DNA from: Adineta ricciae
Taxonomy: Eukaryota > Rotifera > Eurotatoria > Adinetida > Adinetidae
Length of the DNA: 64,000 nucleotides
Direction: 5' to 3'
Assembly: GCA_905250025.1 (NCBI GenBank)
Contig: CAJNOJ010000372.1
Span: 1-64,000 of the forward strand
This document shows, piece by piece, positions 13,065-45,684 of this stretch (its first letter is position 1; the number at the start of each line of letters is the position of its first letter). The notes under the pieces were generated by a model. That model was given only the letters and a program-made list of their open reading frames with translations. It did not search any database and was not told the origin of the DNA. Made by a program: the position numbers and the translations under genes.

Positions 13065-13209
13065 CTGTGTAGAGGATATATTCTTCTGATACGTCTTAAT
13101 GAATGTGTATTTTCCCTTCTTTGAGTAGATGTGTTGATGACATCAAATTATCCTTTTTTGAAATGTTAAAAACTTTATTTCGAAAACAAAACTCCATGTT
13201 CGGAAAGAA

Positions 13210-21302: not shown

Positions 21303-22981
21303 ATATTCATTCTAAAGCTGTGGGTGACCGAGAGCTTGTGCATCTACTTAGATGTTCAATCTTCTTTTCTTTTTCTTATATTTCTACTTTTTTTTGTTTA
21401 CATTAACTCCGTGTAATCAATTAGTTAGCGAAAACACCCATGCAGACAATGCATGTTTCCGGCAAAAAAGGTGGAATCACATGAATAACATCAATACATA
21501 TGTTGGTAACATTGTTTTTCTATGTATCCGTAGTGTCTGCTTGACTGGTGGACATTTAACACATTATCATTTGTAAAACAAGACGACGCAGGTGTTTGAC
21601 AACGTGCAAATGAGTATCTTCAAAGCACGTGACCATTCTGGAGACGAACAAACATAGGTGCATCGATCAACTATGCTTACAAACTATGACTTTCACTCCC
21701 AGACATATTCGATGTCATTCGACAGAAACGTTTCAGTGCCGTCTGTGCACTCTCAATTGCTGGCATACCTCCAGCAGTTATGATTATTCGATGCTATAGG
21801 CTTTCTCATTTTGTTTGGTATTTGTAGCTAAAGTACAATCATTTGTTGACAATGAACCTGAAGCACAAGTTTATGAATGGATCTATGAGCATTGTCGATC
21901 AATTCGTTGGTCATGCTATACGACCACAATCATTTGGACCGTTGGCTTTCTATTGGAATTCGTCTGTCAACTGATATTAATCTTTGTTCATCTATGATGA
22001 TCTTACAAATCTACCTATAAACGGAGAAAAACTTTAACATCGATCAGACCATGAATAGAAGTTCAATTACAAAAATAATCGAATAAATTTAGTTTAAATA
22101 GACTATGATGCTCTCTGGAAAGGTGTTGGTAGAAAATTGATTCTGAACACTTGTAACAATTCGTGCGTATAAAAATATTGTGAAGGGTAACCCATTTTAA
22201 CTTTTATTCAAATCTTCGAAGTTAATATACATTATCTAATTATTTAAAGGAGAATGTAGTGTTCTAAGATCTTGAGAGTAGGAGCATTTGTATCCGTTGC
22301 TGACATTCTCGCCCTCAAGATGGGATTTTTTTCATCTATACTAGAAAGTCATTTGCTAATGACGAGTGATACTAATTACATATTCAGTATTCCTGATCTA
22401 CGAGATATATGATAACGGTCAAACAGCGATCGTTATGCTTTTATTATCGCAATTCTGAAAAAGTGATCATAGTAACATTCGACAAGCTTCTGTTGTGAAA
22501 ATACATGTTGCGAATGCCACATTGATGAAATTAAATGTGAATAGTCCTGGAAAACAAGTGACGGATATCTTCTTCAGCAATAGTTTAGAAAAGCTGCAGA
22601 CCGTTGGTGTTGTTTACTTTAGTGGATATACTCTGATTTTATTGATAGGTATTTTATATTCGCCTATTCCTTGGTCAGGGTGAGAGCAGGGATACGAATA
22701 CTCTCATCCTTAGCAAGTGTGTGCTTCATATGTTGAATGTTAATAAAGGAAACGTGGTGATTGACTATGCAGATTTACGTCTCAACAAGCGTTGCATTGA
22801 TGAGAAAATTGGTAAATTAGATAAGAAATGTTAACTTGATCAGAACGACATGTGACGGTCAAGCGAACAATACTTAATTTAATTCAAATGGTTTCTCAGT
22901 TGCCTCACACACCTATACTCTTATCGTCAATCCAACTCAAGTATTTCTCAATATATCTATATAGAGGAGCCTATGATGATG
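21303..22981. other. Intergenic between F-box/LRR gene and LTR element
   Basis: About 1.7 kb. Up to 22563 it aligns with 37430-38665. A frame at 21815-21997 (YEWIYEHCRSIRW then a hydrophobic stretch) is open in this block only and broken in the other, so I treat it as chance or a relic. From 22564 to 22981 the sequence is unique; it includes a 35-codon frame starting MLNVNKGNVVIDYADLR near 22732 with no known relative. Confidence 0.4.
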
Positions 22982-22986
22982 GTGAG

Positions 22987-23295
22987 TGTAGAGTGTCTGC
23001 GTACATTCATCACGCGTCTCTATGACGCATTTGTTTTTCTCTCGTTTTCGCTCGTGCACATATATATATATGTCCGAGTGTTTTCGTCTCTCTCCCTTCT
23101 TTTCTTTCGTGGATTTTCCCACGAGTTGTTCTCTCTGTCTCGTGGTGTGTGTGTTTCACAACCAACCTAGACAGAACGTTTTTTTTCTTCTCGTTCGTTC
23201 GTTAGCGTTTCGTTTTCCGTTTGTTTTGTTTTAATCAATAAAACAACAACAAAGTTGAAACGCGTTTCCTTCAAGCAAATCTGCACAGATTTACA
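22987..23295 (+). repeat. 5' LTR of the Ty3/Gypsy element
   Basis: Starts TGTAGAG, ends GATTTACA, and includes a poly(A)-type AATAAA near 23237. It is preceded by GTGAG and followed by a TGGCGACGAGG stretch in the usual primer-binding position. Confidence 0.95.
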
Positions 23296-23387
23296 TTGGC
23301 GACGAGGTTATTACTTCCTGCTTTTCTCCTTCGGCTCGTTTTCTTCGAATTTGCCGTTTGTGGTGTTTACGCTGCTGAACACCAACA

Positions 23388-23921
23388 ATGACCGATGCGA
23401 CCAAATCTTCGTCGACAATTACGCCGACAACATCGACGTCGTCTTCCATCGGTCCGTCGATTCATTCCAGGATGCCTGCCTTGCATGCATTTGATCCTCG
23501 GACGACCACTTGGGAACGTTATAGAGATCGCATGTGTTTTTACTTCAAGGCCAACCAGACAGTCCACGATGATGACAAGAAATCTTTGTTTTTGTGGTCT
23601 GTAGGTGATGCGACGTATCATTTGCTTCAATCGTTAATTTCGCCGAAATCATTGACAGATGACACGGTTACTTGGGTGGATATTCTTACAACGCTAGACT
23701 CTCATTACGATACAAAGAAGAATATCATGACGTCCACTTATGATTTTTATTCGTGTCATCAGAAAGTTGGTCAATCGTTTGCCGAATGGAAAGAAGAACT
23801 TTGTGACAAATTGCGTTATTGCGGATTTACCACGTCCACGTTGAAAGATAAACCTCAGGATCGCGCGTTGCGTGATGCCTATGTTATCGGAATTCGTAGT
23901 CAAAAAATTCGACAAGCGTTA
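23388..23921 (+). other. gag segment of the LTR element
   Basis: A frame starting at 23388 with a Ser/Thr-rich leader and then AFDPRTTTWERYRDRMCFYF and SLFLWSVGDATYHLLQSL, the retrotransposon gag capsid-type signature of Mag-like and K02A2.6-like elements. It ends at the assembly join at 23922. Confidence 0.85.
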
Positions 23922-23922
23922 N

Positions 23923-24125
23923 CGCAACGTATTGAAATCGATGCATTTTTCAGTTTCTTCTCTCAATTTATGATTCAATTTATTTTTATTTCTCCATTTT
24001 ATTTATTTATTATGTCATCGAAATCTTTTCGACGCGAATTCATACAAATAATTCAAACATACTGGTATAAATGCTTTCGACGACCAAATCGAGTAACTCA
24101 TATCAATAGATTCACTAGAAATTAA
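23923..24125 (+). pseudogene. Receptor C-terminal fragment, copy 2
   Basis: It encodes the last 67 residues of the 8879 receptor (QRIEIDAFFSFFSQFMIQF to FTRN and the stop) with three amino-acid changes. The 5' part is missing at the join at 23922, so this is an assembly truncation or an allele fragment and not necessarily a dead gene. Confidence 0.85.
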
Positions 24126-24584
24126 GTAATATATCAGTCCCAAAATCTTTTCGAAAGTGTAGATTGAAGTTTTTCGTTTAATCCTAATTTGCTTTGTACT
24201 ATTTTTTTTCATAACGATACCATTTTAACTCAATAAAATCAGAACTTAAAAATAGTAGGAATGATACATCATAAGTATTCGCAAGTACACCATTGATCCC
24301 GGAAAGAATGAATATTGCTGATTAAGGAGTTATGAAACTGTTCGTTCTCTTGAAGTCAAATACAGACTACTAAATCTTTTCTATGAATATTATCTCGGAA
24401 AACGAGTCATTTTGTAGTTGTTTCTGTACAAATTTTATATTCAAGGTTAAGTATCAGCGCTAAATACAATCATCATTGTTGAAATGAAATCGCTTTCCTA
24501 CTTCTAGCTAAGTGAGTTTCACCATTTACAGAAAAGTGTTTTTTTAAAGAATACATTATGAATAAACGAGTAAAACTAAACTGT
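24126..24584. other. Non-coding flank, second block
   Basis: Counterpart of 9824-10284; nothing new seen. Confidence 0.5.
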
Positions 24585-24982
24585 TTATTCAATGTTATTT
24601 ACTATTGATGATTGTGATGCTGCATTAACATATATAAATCGTTGAATAACTGAATGTTTTTTTCGTTTCTCTTTTCGATATTTTTTCTAATTCCTCACGT
24701 GTTGGATCAATACCAAAACAATATTTCAATATATCCATTATAACAATGAAAATTACATATACCCATTCGTATCATTCGATGTATGATCCCATTGTCCTGC
24801 ATGCCAAACACCCCAAATAGAAGGAACTTGTTTTACAAAAGTAAACTCTTCATCCTCTGCATTAGATTTGAATTTTTGAGTATAGGGTATGGTAAAGTTA
24901 AAATGAGAAGAAGGTAACCGAGAATATTGATCTTCACCCGAACCAAACGTAATTAACAAAGGCAATGCATCATTGATTGTTC
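24585..24982 (-). CDS. 3'-terminal exons of an unknown protein gene, copy 2 (partial)
   Basis: Same two minus-strand exons as at 10285-10693, with the same splice sites. The upstream exon reads LPLLITFGSGEDQYSRLP and differs from copy 1 by two conservative substitutions (Asn to Lys). As in copy 1 there is no upstream part. Family unknown. Confidence 0.55.
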
Positions 24983-26179
24983 CTAATTTTGGAAAAGGAA
25001 AATCAGGTTAACATTGAACATTTATCTGCCATTGTCTCAATCACCATAGTAGGAAAATTAGTTGTTTCAAACCGAAATTATTCATCAAGATTTATTTCTC
25101 AAAAACATTTGCATCAGAAAATGTTATGTTGTGAGTCTATGAATGGGATCATTAGTTAATATTACGTTTCAAATATATACAAAACATAAATTCGTTTTTC
25201 TATCAAAATCATGTTTACTAGTTTATGTCATTTACATGACAAAAAAGTGAAAGATTTTCTAAATATTAGTTTCCTGTTATACGTGAAAATATCGACTTTT
25301 ATTTAGAATCGAAAGTATTCAATTAGCAGAAATTCACTCAGCTATGATAAACTTTGATGACTGTCGTATTCTACTAGGAAGGTGTGTCTATCGGATCTGT
25401 CTGACGAAAACTATGAAGTTCGGTATCGAATGCGAATATGTAATAGGTGAACCTTTGGGAATAATGTACTTTTCTTTTTATTAACTTTTACGAATATCAT
25501 GTCTTGGAATTATGATATACAAAAGATAAACGAATGTGTTATTTACCTGAACAAAGTTATCTACTTTGAATAAATGACAATATTTTATCGTTTTGTTCAC
25601 TGAAAAAAGATGATTGTTGCTTTTTACTCTTTCTATTTACAATAGAAGACTTTTTCATAATGTTTTTAAGGATGAGAATGCGAATATAGAAACAATGAGA
25701 TGCTTATTTATCTTGAAAATAGGTGAAACAAGAATGATGACGTATGTTGAAGGATTAGCTACAACTTTTTCTCATTTCCATCCACACTCTCACCAATTAT
25801 CAATCTCGGTTCGTATCATTTTATAGCCTCCGTCGTTTTCTCTATAATTTGCCGTTGAACTTACGCTTCTTCAACATTATTTGGTACTGCGCAGATAGAT
25901 TTTCAGTGTGTCGTATAGTTAGTTCTGTAAATATCGAAGATAAGATAAAAAAATATCCGTTGATTTCATTTGCTGCTAAAAGAGAAAGAGAATTTGTTTC
26001 ATTTTACCAGTGTGTAAAGTAGAAGATAAGCAAGAATTAGGAACGTTTTGTGATAAGTCTAATTATAGCTTGAATCAACTAATTCTGTAGTTTGTATAAG
26101 TTTAATAAAGAAATACGATGAATTTTGATTTATATGACATGATTTTAGATCTATTCTATATCGCACATTGTTTTCAAAA
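24983..26179. other. Intergenic, second block
   Basis: Counterpart of 10694-11885 with small indels; no gene seen. Confidence 0.45.
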
Positions 26180-26710
26180 ATGCGTGCACCTCTAATTTTT
26201 ACATTCTGTGTTGTATATTGTTCATCAAGTTTGTTGCTTGGAATTGAGCTGGTAAAAACTACAAGTACAATTGCTTTGTTTTATCTCTATCAAAGAAGTA
26301 AAAGTTTCTAACAATAATTTTTGTTTGTTAAAAGGCTTTGTTCATCCCGGTGGCATCCATCCTCAAGAACAGTTAGACTTTGTAAAAGAAAAAGTTGCTC
26401 AAAAAGAACAACCATATTTCAATGCATATCTCCAATTACTCAACAAGACTGCACAAGCATATGCATCGAATGAATCCGCTTGAAGTGGCCAAGATCTGTT
26501 AATATGCATAGACGAATTAACATAATAACCAGGAATAGAAAAATTAGCGACGGCATGAGTAGGATGAGTGAATGCTTGTGCAGTCTTGTTGAGTAATNCA
26601 GCCGATATATTGATTATGTTCAGTCAGCGAGACCGATCATTTATCCAACACACCATTTTGCTTGGACATTTCCAACATTGATGAGAATTCAACTGAATGA
26701 CTATTTCTAA
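26180..26710 (+). pseudogene. Alginate-lyase-like gene, copy 2, centre missing at an assembly join
   Basis: Exon 1 (26180-26264) encodes the signal peptide MRAPLIFTFCVVYCSSS, and exon 2 opens at 26335 with FVHPGGIHPQEQLDF. After 26460 the sequence turns into an inverted copy of the next part of the gene (26461-26597, complement of about 12141-12277), then the join at 26598, then the last 112 bp of the gene (26599-26710, RYIDYVQSARPIIYPTHHF to stop). About 680 bp of the middle are absent. The fold-back next to a join looks like an assembly artefact, so whether this allele is intact is unknown. Confidence 0.8.
26461..26597 (-). repeat. Inverted lyase segment abutting an assembly join
   Basis: It is the reverse complement of about 12141-12277 with few mismatches. 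About 26 bp (26435-26460) are present in both orientations, forming an inverted repeat. Confidence 0.85.
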
Positions 26711-27099
26711 CTGTGTAGAAGATATATTCTTCTAATACGTCTTAATGAATGAGTATTTTCCCTTCTTTGAGTAGATGTGTTGATGGCATCGCATTAATCC
26801 TTTTTTGAAATGTTAAAAACTTTATTTCGAAAACAAAACTCCATGTTCGGAAAGAATCTTTTTCCTAAAATATAATCTCGTCCGATTTTAATCAGTTTAT
26901 CGTGCATTGAAATTGCTCTAGACAGATCACGATTACAATGCATCTCACACGTTGCTATCAAACGAAATTTCTTTGCATCGTTTATCACAAAAAACGATAC
27001 ATTGACAGAACAATTCACGATCTCACTACAGTACAATCAGCGATTATTTTCGTTGCCAATGGTCTTTTTCCAATAAAACAGATTCTATCAGCACGATTA
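26711..27099. other. Intergenic, partly specific to the second block
   Basis: From about 26870 to 27355 the sequence has no counterpart in the first block, where the flanks meet at about 13220. On the minus strand, RDLSRAISMHDKLIKIGRDY reads at 26860-26960 but without a family match. Confidence 0.4.
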
Positions 27100-27249
27100 A
27101 TAGTTCGATTAGATAAATCATGATAATACTTCAATCGTCGAAGAAGTTTTTCCGGTTTCTTCGATCGTACAATAATCATTGGTGCAACAATAAACAACTG
27201 TATCCATACAGAATGCCTCACATGAAGAAGATTCCGTCATTTAATTGGT

Positions 27250-27546
27250 TCAAAGAAACAAACATTTGTTTCGCTTCTTCGGGTTGGAATTTATGATCGA
27301 ATTAGATTTTGTAACAATTGAATTCGATATTGGACTCCACCAAACATAAACATTATTGATGAAATATTCAATTGAAAGAAATAATTTGTATAAACCAATG
27401 TCTTCTTCGGATAATTCACATTCAACTGGTAATGAAGTTCTTTTCGGATCTGAATCGCCGATTTTCAATTGAAATTCACATGATGGATATATTAATGATT
27501 GAACAACTGAGGTAAAGATCATGAAAATGAAAATAGTTGGAAGCAT
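27250..27546 (-). CDS. Small secreted cysteine protein, possibly Ly6-like, copy 2
   Basis: The ATG at 27546 starts a clear signal peptide (MLPTIFIFMIFTSVVQS), followed by YPSCEFQLKIGDSDPKRTSL and ECELSEEDIGLYKLFLSI. The open frame ends near 27250. In the same frame just downstream (about 27166-27236) the sequence reads SSCEAFCMDTVVYCCTNDYC, a pattern like the C-terminal CCxxDxCN box of Ly6/uPAR domains. Two stops lie between the two parts; they could sit in an intron I cannot delimit or mean that the gene is dead. The first block has lost the start and this downstream part. Confidence 0.45.
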   Translation of the reverse strand: MLPTIFIFMIFTSVVQSLIYPSCEFQLKIGDSDPKRTSLPVECELSEEDIGLYKLFLSIEYFINNVYVWWSPISNSIVTKSNSIINSNPKKRNKCLFL

Positions 27547-27915
27547 TGCAATCAAATTGAACAGCAGATAATTGTGAGCAATGCGCTTTTTTTCGACTTT
27601 TGCATAGATTTATTTCGAATCATTTACGCAAAAAGCTTTTTTTCAGAATCAAATCGAATAAAAGCCATGGTAAACGACACGAAGATGTTTGCGGGTAGTA
27701 GTAGTAATATTAAAAGTCGCCCTTTTATTCACACTCGTCACTCATCGTGTAATCGCACAGTAACATCGAAATTATATTCAATCTGCATCAAAGTCTAAAA
27801 GATTTCGTCGAACATGTTCTTTTTTTATTTTCCATACATGACGAAGGCTTAGAAACTCCTGTGAGATCGAAGACGGATAATCCATTTGTTTAAGACTATA
27901 TCAAATTCGCATGAT

Positions 27916-28660
27916 TCAGTGAAAAAAAAAGAAAGGCGGCATTATAAGTGTTTCTTCCTCGTTGAAAGTTGAATAAGGTGCCACGTCACGGCTATCATCT
28001 TCATTTATAACGAGAATAAAAAGAGTATTATCAGCAACGAATTCTGCTTCATCACGACTTCGAGTTCTAGAAAGAAAGCTTAAGCCCTGGAACCTGTCAC
28101 CAGCTGACTGGCGATATTGTTCAACTAAACTCTCGGATAAGTCGACTGCACGATAGAGAGTCATTTTTTTGTCAGTACGCGGATTTGGAAGCATCTCTCG
28201 AAGGAAAGCAAAGAGACCGAGAGTGCGCGCTTTTATTCTCCACAACGTCTGATGTTGCTCGTCCAATTCGTCAGTCTGAAGTCGCATTGCTTCATTTAAT
28301 CTCCTGAATAGAAACGAGCCGTGACTATAGAGTTCAGCGCAACTCTCAGCCACCTCTTTCCTTGATGCTTAGCAGCTTTCGAGCGATTCATTCGGCGTGC
28401 TTTTGTTTGCTTATTTTCTCTCCTTCATTAACAATGCCATCAGCTGCTTTCTCGACGATTACTGACAGAAGAGTTAAGTCATCTGCTTCCTCACAACTGA
28501 GACCAAAGTTCTCTTGGAAAGCTTCTTCTAAGAAGTCACAGCTACTAAACAAACCAAAAGATGTCTCAGAAATAATAGCATGGGCTGCGAATCTCTCTTC
28601 TCGAAGTCGCCTCGGGAAGTTCGTGTTGAAATGCTTCTTCAATGATGGCACTGTCAATAT
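27916..28660 (-). pseudogene. ADP-ribosyltransferase-fold gene relic, copy 2
   Basis: The C-terminal part shows the mono-ART landmarks in order: Arg of the LYRAV strand, the Ser strand GLSFLSRTRS, and an ExE-type Glu motif STFNEEETLIMPPF. These mark the R-S-E class that uses NAD to modify proteins. An N-terminal helical region (CEEADDLTLLSVIVEKAADG) precedes it. The gene is broken in about two places, different from those in the first block. Fossil; role in life unknown. Confidence 0.65.
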
Positions 28661-29410
28661 TACATAGGGACTCCATTTCTAGGGTTCTTTGGAAGACCAG
28701 ACGTCCTCGTTTGATTTCCACTAACATTCAATGAATTGCTTTTGTAAATGGGCTGTCAGAACGTGTGACATAGTTGAAACAATTTGCTACAAGCGATCGT
28801 CTTAGCAGTTTGCACTATAACTGAATTTTAAAGAGCTTTTTATAGAACTGATAAGAAGCAAGCTTGCTACCGATGCACGTTTGTCTTTAGCAGTCGGGTT
28901 GATTAAAATAATCATGGATGGAAAGTTAAGGGCAAGTAGATAACTTGTATACATTGAGTGCCAGTAGAATAAAGAAAGACATGATTCATGTAATACAAAT
29001 AAGAAGAAAAAGATCATAAAACTGTTTTTTCCAGATACACAATTGCGACGTTGAATCCGACCAGAGTGAGAGTATGAGCAAGGATGAAGACGCTATACAC
29101 ACGTCAACGCCAATTCTACTTATTTCGATATACTAAGGATAGAATCATGCGCAATAAGGATTATTCATCCTGTGCATTTGTACACGATCAATTCTATTTT
29201 GACAGCACTCAAGGCGTGACTTTTGCATTTATTAGGTTGAATTCTGGTTGCCAGTATTTATAATAAGAATACTTCATGTTGAGAAAGAATCAACAAAGTA
29301 TTCCAGAAAATCTTGTTCGTACAACTCATGATTGATGTGACTTAAAACAAGTTTGACTTCTCATTTCAATCATCTCTGGATTTTGTTCAAGCACTTTCCT
29401 AACATCGTCA

Positions 29411-29658
29411 ATGAATACTTATTCGAAAGTCGCTGTTGTAATCATCATACTTACCATAGTGATTGTAGTTATCACTGTACCAACTGGTCTCTCTTTCCAA
29501 AAGGAGAACAAGCAAAGTTGTCTAACAGGTATACTATACTGTTTCTTTTGTTATACATAATAAGTTTCATTTATTGATCAGATGCATCTTCAAGTTCTCC
29601 GACATATAGATCGCCTTATCCTCTAATCGCAAGAGAAACAACTTTAATCCAGCTCTAA
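29411..29658 (+). CDS. Possible small membrane protein gene
   Basis: Exon 29411-29528 starts MNTYSKVAVVIIILTIVIVV, a signal-anchor-like helix, and continues TVPTGLSFQKENKQSCLT. A 53-nt GT-AG intron of the usual local size leads to exon 29582-29658 (DASSSSPTYRSPYPLIARET), giving 64 residues. A type II membrane protein start would look like this and later exons may be missing. No family recognised. It is absent from the first block. Confidence 0.4.
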
Positions 29659-29896
29659 ATATACAAATCTAATAGCTATAAATGAATATGGTCCATTTAC
29701 ATCGGCCAACGAGATACAGATTATGTTCAAATACTACAGTGAAATACACTCCGTTAATTGCAATTCCATTTGCTTACGAAGATTGCAAAATATTGACTAA
29801 TGTAAGTGGTCCTGATTTTTTTCATTTTACTTCAATAAAGATTTCACGTACGAGGAGATGAATTGATATTCAATAGGTCAGTTCATACCATGGTAA

Positions 29897-29919
29897 GGGG
29901 TGGGTGAGGGTGTGAGGGG
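29897..29919 (+). other. G-quadruplex-capable run
   Basis: Four runs of three or more G separated by short loops (GGGGTGGGTGAGGG then TGTGAGGGG). Whether it folds in vivo cannot be told. Confidence 0.5.
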
Positions 29920-30615
29920 ACTAAAAGAGCAAATATAGATGAAAGGACAGGTGTAACAAAGATACTCTTACCTTCACCCTCAGTCTCAACTCCGTACTAA
30001 GCAGACAGTATTGATATTGTTCGAATAATTCATATGTGTACTATTATCCGAAATGATAGTTGTCGTTACAGACAATGGTTCCACTACTGTGTGGCTTCTC
30101 ATCGAGTTGTTTTGAAGTTCTAAACAAAGAGAATATTACTATATAGTTAAAATTGAAACGAGGAAAAGCTGTCTTGCCCATTAAGCTCTGTGCTGCCCGC
30201 TGACACTCGATAGCTTAAAATGCTGCTATCAGATATTCAAAATTTCCATCAGAGGTTTTCCATCGCTCAAAGAGCTGTTGAAATACGTTTTATGTCCCAC
30301 CACTAGTCGGATCATGGACGATACGTCGTGCAATATCGCTTTCCGACAGGAAATTTAAGCTTTTTTCGTTCGTTATCACTTGGGTGGTCTAAGATATCAA
30401 GCAATACTTTTCGAAACTGTAACTTTGCGTCTTCCATGAATGAAAAAATTCACACAACCATTAGCAAAAACAACTAGTGTGAGGATGATCCGCATATAAC
30501 TGTACAGATGAAGGAAATATTCACTATTATCTCCCGACATCTGCTACCAATGCAAAAGTTTTACATGATCAAAATATAGTAAATTCACATCTACACCGAT
30601 CAATGTTGCCATTTT

Positions 30616-32105
30616 AAAATGATGAATAGATTCAATCTGGGCATAAATGTCTTACGAAAAAAAAAACAATAAGTTCGCAGGCGAAGAAACTTGAAGCATA
30701 TTGATATCTTTGTGTTCGACCGCTTTTCAACGTGTAATGTTTTGATGTAAATATGTCTTAATTGACAACGGGTAATTCCGGTAGTCTCCTTCATATTAAG
30801 CATTTTTTGTAGAGAATCCCAAATGAATATCTGTAATCTTTGATGAAGTAATGCGTTGTTTCGATTTGTATGGACGGTGAACTTGTCAACCATCACGAAT
30901 AAAAAGTATGCGGAAAAATTACCTTTACTTATGATCTTTCACTGAAGCAGTAAGAGCACCCAATTGCTATCCACCTGAAAAAGATGTTCCTAGAACAAAT
31001 GACATTTACAACTCGATTTGTGAATGATCTAACCTCAGGTGCATTAATGTGAGTTTTGAAGATCAAAAAATATGTTTTGTTGACAGCAGATTCGATACAG
31101 AAGCTATTGAGATTGATGATTTCAACGGTGGCGATCGACAAGACATTGTTGATATATTATTTCAGCATGAAAATAAAGTCTTGAGTGCAAGAAGCTCACT
31201 TCTTGCTAGAAATCTAGACAAATAAAATCCATGGCTGCCAAAGATTTTAATTGTGAAGGCATTTTAGACATTGTTGTTCGTAAAGATTCATCTCGCACTT
31301 TCTATGTTATTACGATTTATTGATGGTGAAATTCGGCGTTTAAATAGTTGATTTGTCAAGCTATGGATTAATATCAATGCTTTTAATGGAAGTGAATGTT
31401 CAGTTATTATCGATAAGGATTTAGATTCTGATTTCATAGACATTTTTTTATAGGTTGGTCAAAAAGATTAAAATTGGTTTGCTTCTCAGTAATATTTGAC
31501 TTTTTTTGTGCATTATTACATTGATTCATCTATTCATTTTGCTTATTAATCGAGTAATTATCTGTTTTCTTCTAGAACTTGAATTGATTTTGGCTTGCCA
31601 ATGTTTGTATGATTTTTCTGTGTAGTCGCTATTTCAAAATCGAAATATCTCGGCTACACGTGTTACTTTTCTTTTCTTTATCTCTCCTCCGCCGCAAAAA
31701 CAAATAAATATATAAAAAAATGTAAGTCTGCAATAAGATAAAAGAGAACGGTTTCTTTCTTCTAACAAGTAACTTACATCGAATTTACTTTTATTACTCA
31801 CAAATGTGATAAATGCTCTACTTCGCGGCTATTTGACAATAGATGATCCAATTGATATTCTTCGTTCGATGATGTCATACATGTTTCTTTTATTTTTTTC
31901 CCCTCTTTACGACGTTGTTGGAATTTTCCTCCTTCTATAACCTTATATATCGTGTATCTTTAATCATAACAAGATAAAAATATTTCACTATTATCTCATT
32001 TATCTCTCATAAAATACGCTAGTTGGCAATAAGTTAATTAATAAAAGAAACCGCTATTAGGGAATAGTCAGCTGTATGTTCTTCTTTTGTAGATTGAATA
32101 TTACA
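30616..32105. other. Upstream region of F-box/LRR gene, second block
   Basis: Counterpart of 14415-15945 with several indels. The plus-strand stretch 31088-31225 reads DTEAIEIDDFNGGDRQDIVD and ILFQHENKVLSARSSLL without a stop, preceded by a CAG acceptor; the first block has lost part of it. Minus-strand 30600-30896 reads MMVDKFTVHTNRNNALLHQR. Possible relics of an unassigned gene. Confidence 0.4.
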
Positions 32106-35100
32106 ATGACCGACAAATCCCTATCAATATTACCTAACGAACCATTGTATCATATTTTGAAGTATCTTGATACACACTTTATTATTTTCACGTTACGTCG
32201 TATATCCAAACAATTCTATGATATTACCAATCGTTATAATGGATATCTACTCGATGTTAATTCGATATCATCATTACATTTGAAAATCATATCACGAATT
32301 ATCCGACCGGAAAGTATAACTGCACTGAAGTTTCATGACGAACCAAATCAACAAAGTCAAATTGGATTATTTTTCTCAATTTTCAATATCGATCAATTGG
32401 TTTCATTGAAAATGATTGTAGTGGGTGATTGTTTTCATTCGGAAAATTATCAACATTTGCAAAAAGTTGTNCAAACAATAGTTATAGCAAAATTCACTAT
32501 GGATCAATCTGGACCTTCAAAACACTGTTCACAATTGTTATCATTGACAATTGGTGATAGTGTTTTATCCATGTTGGATTTCGGATTGCTTCTTTCGTTG
32601 ACACCGTCATTAATCAGACTCAATCTAAGATCTTATCGAACAACGTTGGATTCAATTAGCAATGGATCAGATTGGTCCGACTTAATTCAAACAAAACTAT
32701 CCAATCTAAGAATATTTCATTTTTTCTTTTCTTATTCTTTAAAAGAAAGAAGCGAAGCGAAAGATTTGGATTTATTGATCAATCACTTTCGAACTCCATT
32801 TTGGTTGCATGAAAAGCAATGGATTGTCACATGTGATTATTACTTACACAACAATCTGGTGAATATTTATACAACACCTCAATGCACCATGGATTTTGAA
32901 AAACAAATACGCTGCATTAAGTCAAAGCAAGCTTCTTCGATTATGCTAAGGTTTCATTCAATCGTTGATTTGCTATCAATGACGAACGACGCTACAGAAT
33001 CAACTCCGTTGACGACATTGAACTTGGATGATGAAAATATTCAAATGCACGATATCAAATATTTGGCATATGCATTACAAACGAATAAAGTAATTATTGC
33101 TTAACTTCATCGCGTATGAGAAAAATTGAGATTCCTGTAGACAGTCAAACATTTTACAATGAAAAACAATGCCATTGGAGAAGAAGGAGCACGATACATT
33201 GCTGAAGCTTTACGAACGAATACGGTAATAGAGACATTTCGATATTTTTCATTTCGAATTCATTTTGAAGACATTGATATCAATTGATTTGGACGGAAAT
33301 CGAATCGGAAATAAAGGAGTACAGTACTTGGTTGATGGATTACAACACAATACGGTGAAATTCTAAAAAACAGACATTTGATATATTTTGTACGATTGAT
33401 TGTGTAGGTTATTCGGAGTATCTTTCTTGGAGGGAACGATATTGGTGAAGATGGCGCGTTGCACCTGGCTGAAGGAATCAAGCGTATGAAGACACTTACG
33501 ACGCTTGGTCTAAATGACAATCAAATTGGAACATGTGGAGCAAAATACCTGAGTGACGCTTTAAGAGATAATCAAGCCCTTGTTATTTCCCATCTTCTCC
33601 TACGGGGAAATAAGCTTGGTGATGAGGGTGTACAGAGTTTAGTTAAGGGCTTCAGAAATAACACGGTAATCTTCTTTTTCGAAGCGAAAATGTCTTCGTA
33701 TTCTTGTCTTCATTAAGACACTCGTGACCCTTCAACTTAGTGACAATCAAATTGGAGTGAAAGGAACACAGTATCTCAGTGATTTCCTGCGAACTAATAC
33801 AGAAAGTTTCCACCATTTGTGATATATGAGCGAATTAGATGTTGGAGTCTTTTTGTAGACGATTTCTCATCTTCATCTTGACAATAATGACATTCGAGAC
33901 GAAGGAGCACGGTATCTTTTCGAAAGTTTAATGAAGAACACGGTATGTTTTCTGATTTGACACTACTTCATTAGCTTTTTTCTCCAAAATAGACACTTAC
34001 TTTACTTACTCTCAATGGAAACAAGATTGGAATTACTGGTGCACAATGTTTAGCCAATGCGCTCAGAAATAAAAGGGTAAATAATTTTCTTTTACAAAGA
34101 TTTGATTGAATATTTGATAACACAGGAACTAATTCAACTTGATTTGAGGGATAATAATCTTGGAGATCAGGGTGTATTACATGTTATTGAAATTCTGCAA
34201 GATATGGAAGTAATTCAGCATTTTGATTCGTCTCCCTTTGGTTCATTTATTTTTCGTAGACATTAAAATCACTCAATTTGAGTGCAAATGGAATCAGTGC
34301 TGCAACTGCAGAACGAATCTATGAATTATTTCAAAAGAAACATGTAACTTTCAAATTTCGTCACTATATATTCATATCTGATGTTCTCAGAGATTGATCT
34401 ATTTCGACCTGACAGATAATGACGAGTGTGCTGCTGCTGCAATGAATGCAGATTTTCAACTTCGAAACAGCGAGATACTCACACTGAATCTGCAATCGAA
34501 GAACATAGGAGACAAAGGAGTTACATTTATTGCTGATGCGTTGAAAAACAATACCGTTAGTGTTATTGAAGAACTTTGCTGGTATTTATAATGTTATTTT
34601 TGATATAGACACTTCGAGAGTTGGATCTGCGATCGAACAAGATTGGAGAAAAGGGAGCAGAAGCACTGTCTTTTGCATTACGCAATAATACAGTTTGTTT
34701 TGGAGTATTACGTACGGATTTATCTTATTTTTTTTTTACATAGATCCTGAAAAAACTATGTCTTAGTGATAATGAAGATGTCCGTTGTGATATTATCGAG
34801 ATGATTTTTATTCGAACTAGAAAAAGAAAGGTTAATAGAATCTATTTCTGATATATTTTCGAAAACATCTCATTGACTAGACCCGAAAAATCATGTCATT
34901 CTTAGGAGAGAAGATGAATGACTTCGGAATTGAATATTTGCTCGGCACACTAAACAACAATACAGTGAGTATCATCTATTTTCACCTTGCAACACATACA
35001 AAATTTACTATGTAGACTATTGAAGAACTCGAACTCTCTGCCAATGAAATCACAGATCAGGGTGTTCAGTTAATCACCGATTGGTTGAAAACTAACAGAG

Positions 35101-37429
35101 TAAGTATTGATTGGTATTTATACACAAACTCATCTTTACTTTGTTCAGCCTCTTGAAAAACTCAGTATCTGCTACAACTACATCACTGACATCGGAGCCG
35201 TATACATAGCTGATATGCTAAAAGAGAACACNGAACTCGAACTCTCTGCCAATGAAATCACAGATCAGGGTGTTCAGTTAATCACCGATTGGTTGAAAAC
35301 TAACAGAGTAAGTATTGATTGGTATTTTTACACAAACTCATCTTTACTTTGTTCAGCCTCTTGAAAAACTCAGTATCTGCTACAACTACATCACTGACAT
35401 CGGAGCCGTATACATAGCTGATATGCTAAAAGAGAACACAGTAAGCTGTCTCTTTTTGATTTTGAATTATCGCATCGATTGAATCATTCTTAGACTTTGA
35501 AAGTCTTGGATTTAAGATCGAATAAAATTGAGACTAAGGGTATCGAAAGTCTTGCTGATGCAATGGAAACAAATACAGTAATGGCTGCTTTCTATTCTAC
35601 ACATTTTTTTACTTACTGTTCTTTTTTTCAAGACACTTACAAAACTTGATCTAGAAGGTAATCGGAGCGATCTGTGTAAAGCATTAGAGCAATCTGTGCA
35701 TATCCGACATGACAAAGTATAAAGATAATCTTCTATTCATTCATTTGCAGTTTAGTTCTCCTGTAGGATTTGAAGATATTTAGAGCAATACCGAGATGTC
35801 TGGGACATGAAGGAGCGAAAATGATTGGTCGAGGATTACGGAATCATATGGTAAATCTAATCTATCATTTGATTTTTCAATATATGCTTGTATGATTGAA
35901 GTGTCTAACGGAATTATCTTTCGATGACTGTAAAATTGGATATGAAGGAATAAAGTGCATTTCTTCTATTTTGAAAACTAACAAGGTAGATATTGTTGAC
36001 TCAATTAAATGAATTGCTTTTCTCTTGTTTTGTTCACAATTAGTCATTAACGAGACTTTGTTTCAATGGCAATCTGATCGAATGCAAAGGCGTACAGTGT
36101 TTGACTGAAACTTTACAACATCATTCCGTATGTCGCAACATAAAGCTTCACGTATTTATTTTTATTTATTGCAAAATAGGCCTTAGCTATTCTAGAACTT
36201 CAATACAATTCAATCGGTGATGAAGGAGCAAAATATTTGGCTGATCTATTAAAAACTAATCGAGTATTTCTGGTTCATATATTTTCACATGTTCATTTTA
36301 CTCTTTTATAGATGCTTACTACATTAGATTTACAGAGAAATCTAATAGGATACCAAGGAGCTCAATATTTCATTGATGCATTGAAAACCAATACGGTTTA
36401 CTTGTTTTTCCTCATCTCTTTGTGTGACTATGAGTTAACAATTCATTTAGAATCTTCAATATCTGAAACTACGACACAACAAGAGTCCAGCATGCGAAGC
36501 CATATCGATCATCCGTGGAAGTCTGCATGTGGAAGTAATTTGTCAGTATTGTTCATTATTTTCAGTCATCAATAATCCTTTTCTAGCATGAACGCGATGT
36601 AGATCTTGAATGTTGCGGTGTCGGAGATCGGATAATTGAATACATGTCATCTCTAATACCAACAGCGAATGTAAACCATACATCCCTTTTGTCTGGCATA
36701 GAATATATTTAGCATACCTTTCTTCAGAGAATACAATGCCTCAATCTCATTTCAAACAATATAACCGATACTGGTGCTCAGTACTTAGCTACGGCGATCA
36801 AACAATCGACAGTAATTGTTGTACTTAGTGGAGTTTTTACGGTTGACTACGATTCTAGACACTGATCCAATTATATCTTCATTCGAATGCTATTGGAGAC
36901 GAAGGAGCATGTCACCTTGCTGAAGCATTAAAATATAACCAAGTAACATGAAGTTCGGTCAAATCGATTCATATCTGTTGCTCTAATTCGTTTAGACGCT
37001 TTCTACGCTCCATCTTCGTGGCAATCAAATTGGTCCAGCAGGCATACGAGACTTGGAAGATGTTAAACGAATTAGAACAGTCAGTTAATCATTCTTTTCT
37101 CCTGTAATGTTTTCATTATACTCAACAATTTCATTTAGACACCAATAGAATTCGATCTTAACAGTAAGTCAATTGAAAGGGAATGAAGACACGTGCTGAC
37201 AGAATCTATAATGTTTCCGATAGGTGTAATTCAATTGCTATGTCCGCAAAGACATCGGCTCAAGTTGTGCAACAGCCAACAACGTAAAAAGAACAATACG
37301 GAATCATACGAAACGAATGGATATAAATGTGATATATGTTCACAAGAATTACTGTGTCTCTCATGGCACTGCTCTTGTACAATAACTGGATTTGACATTT
37401 GTGAAAGATGTCCAGATCGACAGGAATAA
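32106..37429 (+). CDS. F-box / LRR / zinc-finger protein, copy 2 (with assembly gaps)
   Basis: Same architecture as 15946-21302: F-box exon from ATG 32106, 84-nt phase-0 LRR exons and the terminal Cys/His domain ending with TAA 37427-37429. Two joins damage it: at 32471 about 245 bp of exon 1 are missing, and at 35232 about 207 bp (35025-35231 and 35233-35439) appear twice, adding an artefactual pair of repeat exons. The same GA in place of a GT donor (33802) is found as in copy 1. In-frame differences are mostly substitutions, and one alanine of the TAAAA run (near 18510) is absent here. Coding frames and splice sites are otherwise kept, consistent with a functional allele. Confidence 0.82.
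35025..35439 (+). repeat. 207-bp direct duplication flanking an assembly join
   Basis: 35025-35231 and 35233-35439 are the same sequence on both sides of the single n at 35232. It looks like unmerged contig ends. Confidence 0.88.
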
Positions 37430-38665
37430 ATATTCATTCTGAAGCTGTGTGTGACCGAGAACTTGCACATCCACTTAGATGTTCAATCTCCTTTTCTTCT
37501 TCTTACACATCTGCTTTTTTTGTTTTCATTAACTCTGTATAATCAATAGGTTAGCGAAAACACTCATGCATACAACGCATGTTTCCGGCAAAAAGGGTGA
37601 AATTACATGAAAAACATCAATACATATGTTAGTAACATGGTTTTTCTATGCATCCATAGTGTCTGCTTGACTGGTGGACATTTGACACATTATCATTTCT
37701 ATAAAACAAGACGACACAGGTATTTGACAACGTGTAACTGAGCATCTTCAAAGCACGTGACCATTTTGAAGACAAAAGAAACATAGGTAGATCGATCAAC
37801 TATACTTACAAATTATGATTTTTCACTCACAGTCATATTCGATGTCATCCGACAAAAACGGCTCCCAGTGCCGTCTGTACACTCTCAATTGCTGCCATAC
37901 CTCTAGTGGTTATGATTATTCGATGCTATAGGCTTTCTCATTTTGTTTGATATTCATAGCTAAAGTACAATCATTCGATGACAACGAACCTGAAGCACAA
38001 ACTTATGAGTGGATCTATGAGCATTGCCGATCATTTGGGTCGTTGGCTTTCTATTGGAATTCGTCTGTCGACCGATAGTAATCTTTGTTCGTCTGATGAT
38101 CTTACACATCTGCCTATAAACGGAGAAAAACCTTAACATCGATCAGACCATGGATAGAAGTCCATTTACAAAAATAATCGAATAAATCTAGTTAAAACAG
38201 ACTATGATGCTCTGATCTAGAAAGGTATTGGTACAAAATTGATTCTGAACACTTGTAACAATTTGTGCGCATGAAAATATTGTGAAGGGTAACCGATTGT
38301 AACTTTTGTTCAAATCTTCGAAGTTAATATACATTATCTAATTATTTAAAGGAGAATGTAGTGTTCTAAGATCTTGAGAATAGGAGCATTTGTATCCGTT
38401 GCTGACATTCTTACCCTCAAGATGGGATTTTTTTCATCTATACTAAAAAGTCATTTGTTGATGACGACTGATACTAATTACATATTCAGTATTCCTGATT
38501 TACGAGATATATGACAACGGTCAAACAGCAATCGTTATGCCTTTATTGACGCAATTCTGAGAAAGTGATCATAGTAACATTTGACAAGCTTCTGTTGTGC
38601 AAATACATGTTGCGAATACCACATTGCTGAAATAAAATGTGCATAGGCCTGAAAAACAAGTGACG
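37430..38665. other. Intergenic, second block end
   Basis: Counterpart of 21303-22563; no intact gene. It ends at the join at 38666 at the very base corresponding to 22563. Confidence 0.5.
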
Positions 38666-38666
38666 N

Positions 38667-40131
38667 TCTGATGGGTTACAATTACACTATTCATTACAAA
38701 TCCACTCATCATCATGCCAATGCTGATGCACTTTCGCGCTTACCGATCGGACCCGATGATTCTTTTATCGATGATGATGCGAACCAAGTCCATGCTGTTC
38801 AAGTTGAATTACTTACTGACTGTCCAGTCAGCGCGCACGAAATTTCAACCTCAACGGAAACTGATTCGATATTAGCAGTTATCAAACAATTCGTTTCCAC
38901 AGATTGGTCTTCGTGTAAACCGAAATCTCTCGATCCGTCACTCGTTTCGTATTATAATAATCGTCATTTACTCTCGATTGTTGATGGTTGCCTGATGAAA
39001 GATAACCAAGTTATTATTCCTCACAATTTACAACCTCGTGTCCTTCAAATGCTGCATTCGTCGCACTTGGGCACAGTGAAAATGAAACAATTAGCTCGTA
39101 GTCATTGCTGGTGGCCAACCATGGACAAAGACATTTTGAACCTATCGAACGCTTGTTTTACTTGTTCGATACTGAAGCCTTTACCGAAATCCGAATACAA
39201 GTCTTGGCCTGAACCGGACCATGTCTGGTCTCGTGTCCACATGGATTTCGCTGGTCCATTTTGGGGATCAAAATGGTTGTTACTTGTTGATGCCAAATCG
39301 AAATTTCCATTCGTGGCTGACATGCAGAATGACACTTCGGCTTCAAATCTTTCGAAAGTGTTGGACCACGTTATTGATTGGTTTGGGCCTCCAGACAGTT
39401 TAGTTTCCGACAACGGTCCGCCATTCAATTCTTACGCAATGCGCCAGTTTTATTCCAAATATGGTATCACACATGTGACCACCGCACCTTATCATCCTGC
39501 AAGCAATGGGCTCGCTGAACGTTTTGTTCGGTCTTTTAAGGATACCATGAAGAAGCAACTACAATCTGGAGAAACCGATAAGCACATAGCCTTACGAAAT
39601 TTTCTTCGCACTTATCGTTGGTCTCCGCACACGTCGACTGGTGTCTCTCCGGCAAATCTGATGTTTCAACATACAATTCGTACAGATCTCGAACGCATGA
39701 AACCGATTTCTAGTTCACCGACAGCACCATTACAATCCAAGTACGTAGTCGGACAGTCGGTTTGGGCTCTGAAACCACTACTCAATCACCGTTCTCAATG
39801 GAAAACGGCTGTCATCACACGAATTATTAGTTCAATGGTGTACGAAGTTACTTTAGCTGATGGTCAATGTATTAAGCGGCACCAAAATCAGCTGCGTCCG
39901 CGACACTCCACGGATCAATCGTTTTCAGATATCGATAGTTTACCGGATGATATCAGTCCTGATAAATTATTACCGATGTCGACAGATGTGACAACTGCGC
40001 CGATTTCATCGCCATCACTCTCATCGAACTCTATTCCAGCACCACCACCTCCAGCGATTTTGCATCCGTCGTCATCGCCACGTTATCCAACTCGAACTCG
40101 TCGAGCTCCCGATCGCTACTCACCATCGTAA
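38667..40131 (+). other. pol segment of the LTR element (end of RNase H, integrase)
   Basis: The frame opens at the join with the RNase H tail YKSTHHHANADALSRLP, then the integrase zinc-binding part (HSSHLGTVKMKQLARSHCWW), the core D-D-E motifs (VHMDFAGPF, VSDNGPPF, NGLAERF) and a chromatin-side tail rich in Pro and Ser. WSRVHMDFAGPF is characteristic of the Mag lineage of Ty3/Gypsy. A polypurine tract (AAAAGGGGAGG) sits just before the 3' LTR. Confidence 0.92.
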
Positions 40132-40146
40132 AATTAAAAGGGGAGG

Positions 40147-40453
40147 TGTAGAGTGTCTGCGTACATTCATCACGCGTCTCTATGACGCATTTGTTTTTCT
40201 CTCGTTTTCGCTCGTGCACATATATATATATGTCCGAGTGTTTTCGTCTCTCTCTTCTTTTCTTTCGTGGATTTTCCCACGAGTTGTTCTCTCTGTCTCG
40301 TGGTGTGTGTGTTTCACAACCAACCTAGACAGAACGTTTTTTTTCTTCTCGTTCGTTCGTTAGCGTTTCGTTTTCCGTTTGTTTTGTTTTAATCAATAAA
40401 ACAACAACAAAGTTGAAACGCGTTTCCTTCAAGCAAATCTGCACAGATTTACA
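40147..40453 (+). repeat. 3' LTR of the Ty3/Gypsy element
   Basis: Nearly identical to 22987-23295 and followed by the target duplication GTGAG (40454-40458). Confidence 0.95.
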
Positions 40454-40458
40454 GTGAG

Positions 40459-40800
40459 ATGAGATGTAAGAGAAAATGACAATATATGCAGATTGAAGGC
40501 AAATATCCTCACTTCACTTCGTCTGCGTCCTTCTCGCATCAGGATAGCTGTACCGTATTTTTCTTATCCTTATTTACGCACTTTAAAGTCATCATCCAAA
40601 AATAATTCGGGTAAGCATAGAAGCAACAAAAATGGCATGAAAATAATTTTTCTCTTCTAGAGAAGAAAGTAACTTTTTTTCATAAAATAACGCCACTTTT
40701 CTGTTCGTCCCGCATCAGTGTAGTGCGTATCTCCATAAGCATACCTTGCTTGTTTTCTCTTGTAGAGTATTACAAACAAATTCGATAACCAACAAAAAAA
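40459..40800. other. 5' flank of the C2-domain gene
   Basis: AT-rich, no gene. It is the downstream flank of the LTR insertion; the start codon of the C2 gene follows at 40801. Confidence 0.5.
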
Positions 40801-41287
40801 ATGAGTCACGGAGTTTTACAAGTGACTATTGTTGAAGGTCGCAATTTAAAAGACAAGGATATCGTCGGTAAAGATGATGCGTATGTTGAACTTTATTTGG
40901 AGTAAGATTACAAACAACGCACAAAGACCGTCAAGGATACCAACAATCCAACATGGAATGAAACTTTTACATTGTTTGCTGATTTGTTTCAATGTTCTCT
41001 TTTCATTCTGCACCTTCTTATTTTAGTAACTTGCGCAAACATCAGGACGAATTGCATTTGCATGTTTATGATGACGACGTCGTCGGTCGGGATTCAATTG
41101 GATCGAAAACGGTTAATTTGAAAAAACATGTATTCGGAAAGGGTCCATATGACGCTTGGGTCAAATTGCCAGCTCATTTAGGTCTTGGTTCACACGGTGA
41201 ACTTCATGTTATCATTCAACATAATGTAAGTTGATTTCTTTCGAAGTATGACATCATTACTTAATCTCTTCCTTTTCTTAGGCTTGA
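40801..41287 (+). pseudogene. C2-domain protein gene with an early in-frame stop
   Basis: Three exons, 40801-40973, 41027-41225 and 41282-41287, with 53- and 56-nt GT-AG introns, would encode 124 codons. The protein is a single C2 domain: MSHGVLQVTIVEGRNLKDKD, the calcium-loop aspartates in GKDDAYVEL and DDDVVGRDSIG, and NPTWNETFTF. C2 domains bind phospholipids in a calcium-dependent way. Codon 35 (40903-40905) is TAA in LYLE-stop-DYKQRT, where relatives would be expected to carry Glu or Asp. Everything else, splice sites included, is kept, so this is a very recent nonsense change, a heterozygous site, or a base error. The LTR element lies 340 bp upstream. Confidence 0.8.
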
Positions 41288-41689
41288 GTGATTCACCCTC
41301 AAGATCAAACTGAGACATTACTGATTTTTTTCATATTTACTTATGTGTGTTTGAGTGACGAAAAGCTTTGAAACTACTTAAAATAAAACCAGCGATCATA
41401 TAACATCACCAAACAGATATTGCGTATTTTTTCCGATTGAAAAAGGACAGTTAGATGAAAGAGTGTATTGAGTTAGAAAAGATGACAAATTAAAATGTAA
41501 ATATGTTAAAGAAACAACAATGAAAAAGACCCACAGCGGATGATACTGTTGCTGTGTTCGTACATGGTGTGCAGTTGGTTTCTATCAGAAAACTCTCCAA
41601 AGTCGTCGTGAAAAATTCCGAATCCTGTATAAAAGTGAAATGACTCGTTCGGGTAGAATCAACTCTCCTGCTTGAGGAATCCAACTTGT
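41288..41689. other. Intergenic after the C2 gene
   Basis: An AATAAA near 41383 can serve the C2 transcript. Nothing else recognised. Confidence 0.5.
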
Positions 41690-42215
41690 CATTGTATCTG
41701 GTTGATTTCGAAAGGAGAAGTGGCCCACATTATTGTTAAATAATTGAACAAATTTGAATAATTCGCTGCTGAATTCATGAATTCGTATTCAACTTGAGAT
41801 CGTCGAAGGAAAGTCGTAAAAACAGTCGAATTCGAAATATCTTTCACACCCAGAAGGAACATAATTCGCAGGAAATGCAAATAGTGAATTCAATCTGCTT
41901 GGATATTTCATTGCCACATTAAGACCGATGATCGCTCCAAGTCACCGAATGTGTTCGTTGAATACCAAAATGATCCAGTAACCCAACGACATCAGGAACG
42001 GTCGGATCATACGTAATCCCATGTGATGACACCGTACTTCTGCCTTGTCCTCGTGAATCCATCAGTATACAGTGATAAGATGAGTGTAACTCGGCCACTT
42101 GTAATCTTCGGTAAGCACTATGAGCAAATCCGTCGTGAACAAAAAGCAAAGGAGCACCCGTCTTCGGACTCAGTAGTAGTCAACTCATTGACACTATCTG
42201 GATTTTGTGGCAAAG
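41690..42215 (-). pseudogene. Alpha/beta-hydrolase relic
   Basis: On the minus strand, GAPLLFVHDGFAHSAYRRL carries the HG oxyanion-loop region, followed by CILMDSRGQGRS (strand 4 and the DxRGxGxS motif), VVGLLDHFGI and the nucleophile-elbow remnant VTWSDHRS. Beyond it, frame-shifted pieces such as ISNSTVFTTFLRRSQVEYEF and LTIMWATSPF continue the lid and core. Several frame changes and stops show that the gene is dead. It would have been a small esterase or hydrolase of the AB_hydrolase_1 type; substrate unknown. Confidence 0.7.
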
Positions 42216-43134
42216 AAATCAAATAAATCGAATTGTCTTCTGCTGACAGAGTTGTTTTAGACGGTGTTATTACTTTTTCACCGGAGTCAACGATATGTGC
42301 TTCTCGAAGAGACGAACAATATTTCCAACTAGTATTGTCATTGATAACAAGTGATCATTCACGGGGGATACACAGAAAGACAACGAAGGCGTTAAGAAGT
42401 TGTCATCTTGCATCCAATTCGAACTAAAAGGTATACCTCCATTCGTACTTCGATCGATGACGTTAATGGTTGGCGTTAGAAACAAATATCTAACTCAAGT
42501 TTGAATGTCAATAGGTATTTCGAAAACAAATCTTCGTATAAAATTGATTGTGAAAGAGAAGATTGTCTGAGTTAGAAATACATCTAGCTCGTATTCAGTC
42601 ACAGATGTGTGTATTATTTTAAAATGTAGAGAAATGAATACTGCCACTGATGAATAGAAATCTTTTCTAAAAAGTCAAAATATCAGTGTAGGAGTATTCA
42701 ATCTGCATTGAGAAGAAGAGAGTGTAAAAAGATCGCCCAATTTTATATTCTGTTAAAAAATAATTCTACTGTGGATTTTGATCTTGCACATCATATGTAT
42801 TTCATCGCGATTGAAAAATCTGATGTTGCTATAATGATAGCTTAAACGATCTCTTGATTGTCAAGCAGTTGATTAGTTTAAATGACTAAATTCATCAAGT
42901 TTCACAGTAAAACACCTTTTAATATTATGAGATTCAATGTGAATCCTTTTACATGTGCTGATATTATTCACGTAAATTGTGTATGAATTCGATCATTTAT
43001 TTGGTAAATTCTTGAAAATGAGGATGTTTACCTGCCACCCTCACCTTCGCATCACAAACTTAAACAACATCTACACATGGTTTCAAGTTAAATAAATTTT
43101 TAAAAGCATGTTGATCGGTTCTCCGCTGTTGAGC
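42216..43134. other. Intergenic
   Basis: The first 330 bp may hold the decayed N-terminal part of the hydrolase relic; the remainder is AT-rich without recognised features. Confidence 0.45.
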
Positions 43135-44142: not shown

Positions 44143-45035
44143 ATTCTGACAGGAGTGAAAAATATGAAAATGAACGATATTTTTTATTTGATTTCTGCAT
44201 GAATGTAGTGTCAGCATGAATATCATGAATTTAGTTTGGCAGATGTTTATCTGCCGCGATGGACCGAAGTTCGGCATTAGACGTAAAAAGAGAAAATCAG
44301 TCAAATCAGGGAGAATTCTGGTAAACATAAATTGTTTAATATGTCTCCTTGCTTGATTGAAAATAGAGCCCAAACGAAAAGATATTTTTTCTTATGCCGA
44401 TTAATTGAAGAATAATCACAGAAAAAGCAATGCGAATGTTGTATGTGCATCATCAGTAATACATGATGACATGAATAGTCTTGTCGTTTTTCATTCAACC
44501 ATTCCGACAAATATTTTTTCGAGCGGAAAGGGGGATGGTTTTTTCTCTCTCTCTCTTCACAAGATGGTATGAAATCTCACGTTGCCTATCAAATATTGAC
44601 TAACGAAAAAAAAAGAGAAAACTAAGGCTTCTCTGTAGAATTCAATGCATATTACCATTGTTGAAACGTCTAGATCGCTTTTCGAGAAAAAATTGTAGAG
44701 TAAATCACAAGCTGATTATATGATCACGTGACATCGAGTAGCGTCAAGGATGAAATCAAATATCGAAACAGAATTTATGCGATTTCAATATTACATACAT
44801 ATTATAATCTCCTTTTCAAAAAATCGTTTTAACTTTCACTACGATTATAGATTACAGATAGATCAAAGCACTACAACATGAGATGTTTGTAAGCCTTTCG
44901 TTACCGAACATAATTTCACTTTTTGTCTGTGTTGGTTCTCAACGATTATAGTATTTAATCACGGTAAAAAAATCTCTGACTTCGCAGAAAAAGCGAGCAA
45001 TACATCACTAAAAAGTATCCATTGGATGTTTAAGT
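44143..45035. other. Intergenic
   Basis: A CTCTCTCTCTC microsatellite-like run occurs at 44546-44557. No gene seen. Confidence 0.5.
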
Positions 45036-45599: not shown

Positions 45600-45676
45600 G
45601 GTAATCGCAAAAAAATACTGTATAATAAGCTTGCTTACTATAACTGTCACGCGGGTGTCTATGTTCGTTACCTTTT

Positions 45677-45684
45677 CTTATATA
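45677..45684 (-). promoter_or_regulatory. TATA box of the four-helix membrane protein gene
   Basis: TATATAAG on the minus strand, about 80 bp before ATG 45599. Confidence 0.45.

Follow-up and report, generated by a model that had tools for sequence, protein, structure and literature searches.

The marks of false duplication named in the part of Ko et al. 2022 used here (PMC9516828) are half depth, gaps between the copies, discordant read pairs, and single-copy k-mers, and the same part of that paper also reports neighboring copies as well as exons of one gene inserted in another. Tandem homologous blocks have been described on scaffolds ARIC00305 and ARIC00659 of an earlier assembly of the rotifer Adineta ricciae (Nowell et al. 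2018, PMC5916493), together with the warning that gaps in the scaffolds lie within many of the collinearity breaks detected. In A. vaga, allele linkage on one scaffold, in tandem or as a palindrome, was taken as a sign against conventional meiosis (as told in PMC5916493); a later study, in the portion drawn on here, gives one palindrome where the first genome had several (PMC7749112). The present analysis concerns the first 64 kb (positions 1 to 64,000 of the forward strand; GC content, 35.0%), hereafter the window, of A. ricciae scaffold C372 (88,855 bp; GenBank contig CAJNOJ010000372.1, assembly GCA_905250025.1). Here, a retrotransposon with long terminal repeats (LTRs) at 22982-40458 encloses a block, A2, that resembles its own left flank, A1. 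We consider it highly probable that A2 is the other haplotype's version of that flank, misplaced by the assembly (a heterotype false duplication), and not the product of a tandem duplication.

The element itself is a real, recently inserted LTR retrotransposon, probably of the Ty3/gypsy type, and its parts are laid out as follows.

22982-22986: left copy of the target-site duplication GTGAG, read from the sequence
22987-23295, forward strand: 5' LTR, TGT...ACA, 309 bp, from the alignment of the LTR pair
23296-23921, forward strand: 5' interior, with the leader and the start of a gag-like open reading frame (ORF) that begins at 23379 and is cut by the join
23922: single-N join between the gag-like ORF and block A2
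38666: single-N join between block A2 and pol
38667-40128, forward strand: 3' interior, comprising the last part of pol, in which Pfam finds the integrase zinc-binding (PF17921) and core (PF00665) domains
40147-40453, forward strand: 3' LTR, TGT...ACA, 307 bp
40454-40458: right copy of the target-site duplication GTGAG

The site thus displays the paired LTRs and the target-site duplication of an LTR retrotransposon. The two LTRs differ by 2 bp in length (309 versus 307) and by no substitution over 307 aligned sites, which puts the 95% upper bound on their divergence at about 1%. It was initially proposed that both LTRs and both GTGAG copies belong to one insertion, and the matching 5-bp duplications and substitution-free LTRs bear this out. 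Given a multi-copy family and an interior that is absent between 23921 and 38667, one might suppose that the LTR halves are two different insertions wrongly joined, the element being an artifact too. This is very improbable, however, since the 5-bp duplications would match by chance only about once in 1024 cases (simple arithmetic) and the LTRs carry not a single substitution. Related LTR copies were found on scaffolds C326, C1022, C754, C664, C266, and others.

What is absent at the site is the middle of the element: its 5' part ends inside the gag-like ORF, and its 3' part restarts before the integrase. The 3' part opens with an ADALSRLP stretch, presumably the tail of RNase H, followed by the two integrase domains, which adjoin the 3' LTR; reverse transcriptase is not within the sequence at this site. 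The gag-like ORF gave no Pfam match at E 0.001 and owes its name to its position. Only 18 bp separate the end of the pol ORF from the 3' LTR, which leaves no space for an env gene at that point. On C137, a related element has its match to the gag-like part at 96791-96950 and to the integrase part at 99612-100090; by these coordinates, the joins at 23922 and 38666 should be about 2.06 kb apart, versus the 14.74 kb of the block. This spacing is one yardstick only, taken from a diverged relative. Mag, Vesta, Juno, and TelKA belong to Ty3/gypsy, and the present element is like the bdelloid members of this group in the TG...CA ends of its LTRs, its 5-bp duplication, and a pol that ends in integrase zinc-binding and core domains. 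It is unlike them in that reverse transcriptase is missing here. All four of the named elements appear as A. vaga retrotransposons in the part of PMC7943196 consulted.

Between the two joins, block A2 (23923-38665; 14,743 bp) is collinear with A1 and on the same strand, with 740 substitutions over 11,769 aligned sites (6.3%, all four contigs counted).

9621-22563, forward strand: A1, counterpart of A2 on the contig that bears the element, with alginate-lyase-like, F-box, and other ORFs, from alignment and Pfam
23923-26597, forward strand: A2 contig 1, aligning with 9621-12165, 5.9% divergent
26450-26597, reverse strand: inverted end of A2 contig 1, the reverse complement of 12140-12287
26599-32470, forward strand: A2 contig 2, aligning with 12953-16308, 7.1% divergent; includes 28611-30660
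32472-35231, forward strand: A2 contig 3, aligning with 16546-19307, 4.8% divergent
35233-38665, forward strand: A2 contig 4, aligning with 19101-22563, 7.1% divergent

The initial annotation had placed a copy of 9621-22563 between gag and integrase, bounded exactly by the joins, and this proved accurate to the base: the alignment of A2 starts at 23923 and stops at 38665, and each of these bases adjoins an N. Such gap-bounded collinearity is hardly expected by chance. The window contains six single-N joins (1979, 23922, 26598, 32471, 35232, and 38666), and the remainder of C372 contains one further gap of 10 N (69193-69202). When seven gaps were placed randomly on C372, 1 of 200,000 trials brought gaps to within 10 bp of both block ends; when the real gap set was rotated instead, near-zero shifts included, 44 of 200,000 did so. 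The three breaks inside A2 also coincide with N characters, while the upstream contig, which carries A1 and the 5' part of the element, runs from 1980 to 23921 without gaps. Some scaffolders may put one n where a predicted overlap fails; a literature search gave no confirmation of this, and it is not used as evidence here. The published methods consulted list scaffolders for other samples but not for ARIC003.

Two segments of A1 (12288-12952 and 16309-16545) are missing from A2, both at joins of A2. Conversely, about 2 kb (28611-30660) is present in A2 only, and apart from a 45-bp match in A1 it had no other copy in the searched part of the assembly, that is, 1033 contigs amounting to 130.46 Mb, a set that seems to omit the shortest contigs (the shortest seen was 10.5 kb). 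Across the join at 35232, 207 bp are repeated with 1 mismatch (35025-35231 and 35233-35439), likely an unmerged contig overlap. Whole-genome amplification makes inverted chimeras, and 26435-26460 forms a perfect 26-bp fold-back with the inverted end of contig 1. The fold-back at 26435-26597 may be such an amplification chimera; the ARIC003 DNA of A. ricciae was whole-genome amplified, according to the part of PMC7943196 consulted. The filling had been pictured as a single allelic contig, of which the allelic nature is supported and the singleness is not, A2 consisting of four contigs.

Another argument comes from timing. The LTRs of one element are identical at insertion, and material found inside the element must therefore have arrived after the insertion. 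If the neighbor A1 had been copied in at that stage, an identity of at least about 99% would be expected, whereas a difference of 6.3% is observed. This conflict is highly significant (0 of 307 LTR sites versus 740 of 11,769 A1/A2 sites; Fisher p about 4e-9), and the block is thus older than any copy of A1 made after the insertion could be. In a real tandem duplication the duplicate is no older than the event preceding it, a relation that A2 does not show. Only an already-diverged donor, such as the other allele, fits, whether it came in via repair or via assembly. Consistent with an allelic donor, no match to A1 of at least 150 bp in the searched contigs outside C372 exceeded 77% identity, shorter ones reaching 90% (34 of 35 candidates scored). 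Upstream of A1, the stretch 7350-8877 matches C985 at 90%.

Likewise, the downstream flank of the element has a diverged partner on the same scaffold.

42337-55017, forward strand: B1, downstream flank, with its partner B2 at 69212-80768 of C372, 6.2% divergent

B1 and B2 lie on the same strand and show 697 differences over 11,256 sites (6.2%), a divergence indistinguishable from that of A1/A2 (p = 0.79), and B2 begins 10 bp past the 10-N gap. Both values are near the allelic heterozygosity of 5.5% reported for A. ricciae (PMC7953838, in the portion drawn on), nearness to the heterozygosity of the species being a criterion added here and not among the four of PMC9516828. On the scaffold the order is A1, A2 (within the element), B1, B2, which points to interleaved haplotypes. 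A single tandem duplication would give A1, B1, A2, B2 instead. We give next to no credence to the view that 9621-22563 underwent a true tandem segmental duplication, that the element inserted later at the boundary, and that the gaps came to lie at the edges by chance. The copies are indeed collinear and on the same strand, and A. ricciae has two published cases of tandem homologous blocks on one scaffold (PMC5916493). Nevertheless, A2 lies within the element and would post-date the insertion of an element with substitution-free LTRs, yet it is 6.3% diverged; both of its edges are at gaps; and a further, independent duplication with the same divergence would be needed to explain B1/B2.

Farther downstream, 55013-62184 finds its partner on a separate scaffold, C881 (long pieces at 89 to 94%, one 0.5-kb piece at 78%), and this match starts (55013) within 5 bp of the point where the homology with B2 stops (55017). 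The 5-bp overlap at 55013-55017 might be taken for a target-site duplication, but alignment slack is equally possible.

A similar pattern was encountered on two other scaffolds. C344 carries another copy of the 5' part of the element, 97.6% identical and cut by a single-N gap at the same base, and in the 20 kb of this scaffold that was read, same-strand duplications of 94 to 95% abut the gaps at 32914 and 46020. On C985, the gap at 4747 abuts a 94% duplication, and at the gaps 6767 and 7958 the adjoining sequences overlap by 118 and 198 bp, respectively, with 99% identity. Altogether, 14 gaps outside C372 were examined, 12 of them single-N, in stretches chosen by similarity searches and not by random draw; three of the 12 single-N gaps abut a duplication of about 94% and two a contig overlap of about 99%. 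In the loci retrieved, eight direct duplications reached 300 bp or more with an identity of at least 85%, and in all eight a gap lies between the copies, although the eight are not independent (a single C985 pair accounts for two of them, and the transposase repeat at the beginning of C372 for another). Apparent misplacement of this kind is not peculiar to this element, as haplotypes interleave further along C372 and like cases occur elsewhere.

The same observations bear on two readings in which the sequence is taken as correctly joined. A double-strand break in the element might have been repaired with about 14.7 kb copied from the homologue, leaving alleles on one chromosome. Such a templated insertion accounts for divergence at the level of alleles within a young element, and bdelloids are known for their repair of DNA double-strand breaks (PMC5916493, in the passages drawn on), but it does not account for edges exactly at Ns, for the N breaks within A2, for the 207 bp shared across the join at 35232, for B1/B2 as a separate pair, or for the pattern on C344 and C985; we regard it as very unlikely. 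The broader version, in which alleles are truly linked because break repair both copied haplotype 2 sequence into the element and made the downstream pair, carries a small probability at most; if it were true, the chromosome would not be separable into haploid sets.

We therefore favor a misplaced second haplotype. The young element would be carried on one haplotype, and its multi-copy interior would not have been assembled at 22982-40458. The scaffolder would have left a gap there, into which the four A2 contigs of the other haplotype were put with single-N joins, presumably on account of read-pair links. B2, as the downstream part of the second haplotype, would have been strung on behind the 10-N gap (69193-69202), with C881 receiving the allele of 55013-62184. 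Under this scheme A1/A2 and B1/B2 would be pairs of alleles. It agrees with what had been suggested at the outset, namely, that the unresolved interior of the element was filled with the flank's other allele, a claim that is supported by the gap-bounded ends, the four-contig make-up, and the contrast between 0/307 and 740/11,769 substitutions and is backed further by the B1/B2 pair, the lack of another close partner for A1, and the pattern on C344 and C985.

Several observations weigh against this explanation. The empty site of the second haplotype did not turn up in the searched contigs, where 22564-22981 yielded no second copy and 40459-42336 none of at least 100 bp above 74%. No gap marks the point, 80768, where the homology of B2 stops, and the following stretch of about 8 kb has no close partner in the searched contigs besides short or multi-copy repeats, the best single long match being 73% in one search and 66% in that of 84001-88855. 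The end of B2 at 80768 reflects either chimerism of the contig or a genuine loss of collinearity, which misplacement of a haplotype leaves unexplained. Synonymous divergence ranges from 0.02 to 0.35 among the eight ORFs measured (the third contig of A2 was left out of this calculation, and the F-box gene was only partly covered), and two of the eight carry one in-frame stop in the second copy. Finally, six of the 12 single-N gaps outside C372 have no abutting duplication and one has a weak 87-bp match of 85%; five of the six had no more than about 3 kb of surrounding sequence, too little for a judgment, and the remaining one is where the C344 element is cut.

Other features of the scaffold deserve brief mention. 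The two longer gaps outside C372 (68 N and 94 N) abut nothing, their stretches being short. An insertion of a transposon on haplotype 2 was considered for 80769-88855 and found no support: the start is not LTR-like, and of the two largest ORFs the one scanned gave no Pfam match. For C372:64001-69192 and 84001-88855, the matches in the searched contigs were mostly multi-copy repeats, with no clear allelic partner among them. At the other end, 829-1978 and 4321-6417 are multi-copy remains of a piggyBac-like transposase (DDE_Tnp_1_7); the pair 829-1978/4321-5376, which ends at the gap at 1979, was rejected as a haplotype overlap, as this piggyBac-like transposase has many copies in the genome.

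The alginate-lyase-like gene of A1 (PF05426; 12024-13061), whose A2 version is broken by the join at 26598, is perhaps horizontally acquired in this animal genome. Within pair B, divergence falls to 0.5% in the 1-kb bin 46337-47336, with 4.9% and 4.2% in the adjacent bins, reflecting either strong constraint or gene conversion. Two neighboring ORFs at 51705-53170 match successive parts of the Beta-lactamase family profile (PF00144) and are probably one split serine-hydrolase gene; the ORF at 52283 within this region has the highest synonymous divergence of the eight measured (0.35). Pfam families found among the ORFs of the window include F-box, 7tm_1, and alginate lyase, in keeping with a bdelloid.

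The initial annotation had also held that any tandem gene duplication in this locus would be false. While this very probably applies to A1/A2, it does not extend to the whole locus: the ORFs at 55689-56684 and 56928-57926 are 79% identical with no gap between them, and they are probably a genuine tandem gene duplication; neither has a Pfam match.

In conclusion, this locus is an instance of a known false-linkage problem and not a new biological feature. It illustrates how scaffolding across a transposon gap can create allele linkage, and the comparison of LTR age with block divergence provides a timing test that works without reads. Counting both copies of each pair would inflate gene numbers, for the alginate-lyase-like and F-box genes of pair A and for the G protein-coupled receptor, hydrolase, and beta-lactamase-like genes of pair B.

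With regard to known systems, the locus resembles ARIC00305 and ARIC00659 in having tandem homologous blocks on one A. ricciae scaffold (PMC5916493), in a different assembly version. The 207 bp on both sides of the join at 35232 resemble a homotype false duplication, or contig-end overlap, as described in the consulted part of PMC9516828; there, homotype cases are tied to read errors, whereas an unmerged contig overlap would be the likelier cause here. Above all, the locus is like the heterotype false duplications of the same source, in which the two alleles stand on one scaffold as if they were paralogs, separated by a gap, and the corresponding gaps are found here at 23922 and 38666 and, as the 10-N gap, ahead of B2. 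Unlike the heterotype cases in that part of the paper, the second allele is here nested in a transposable element, in the form of four contigs.

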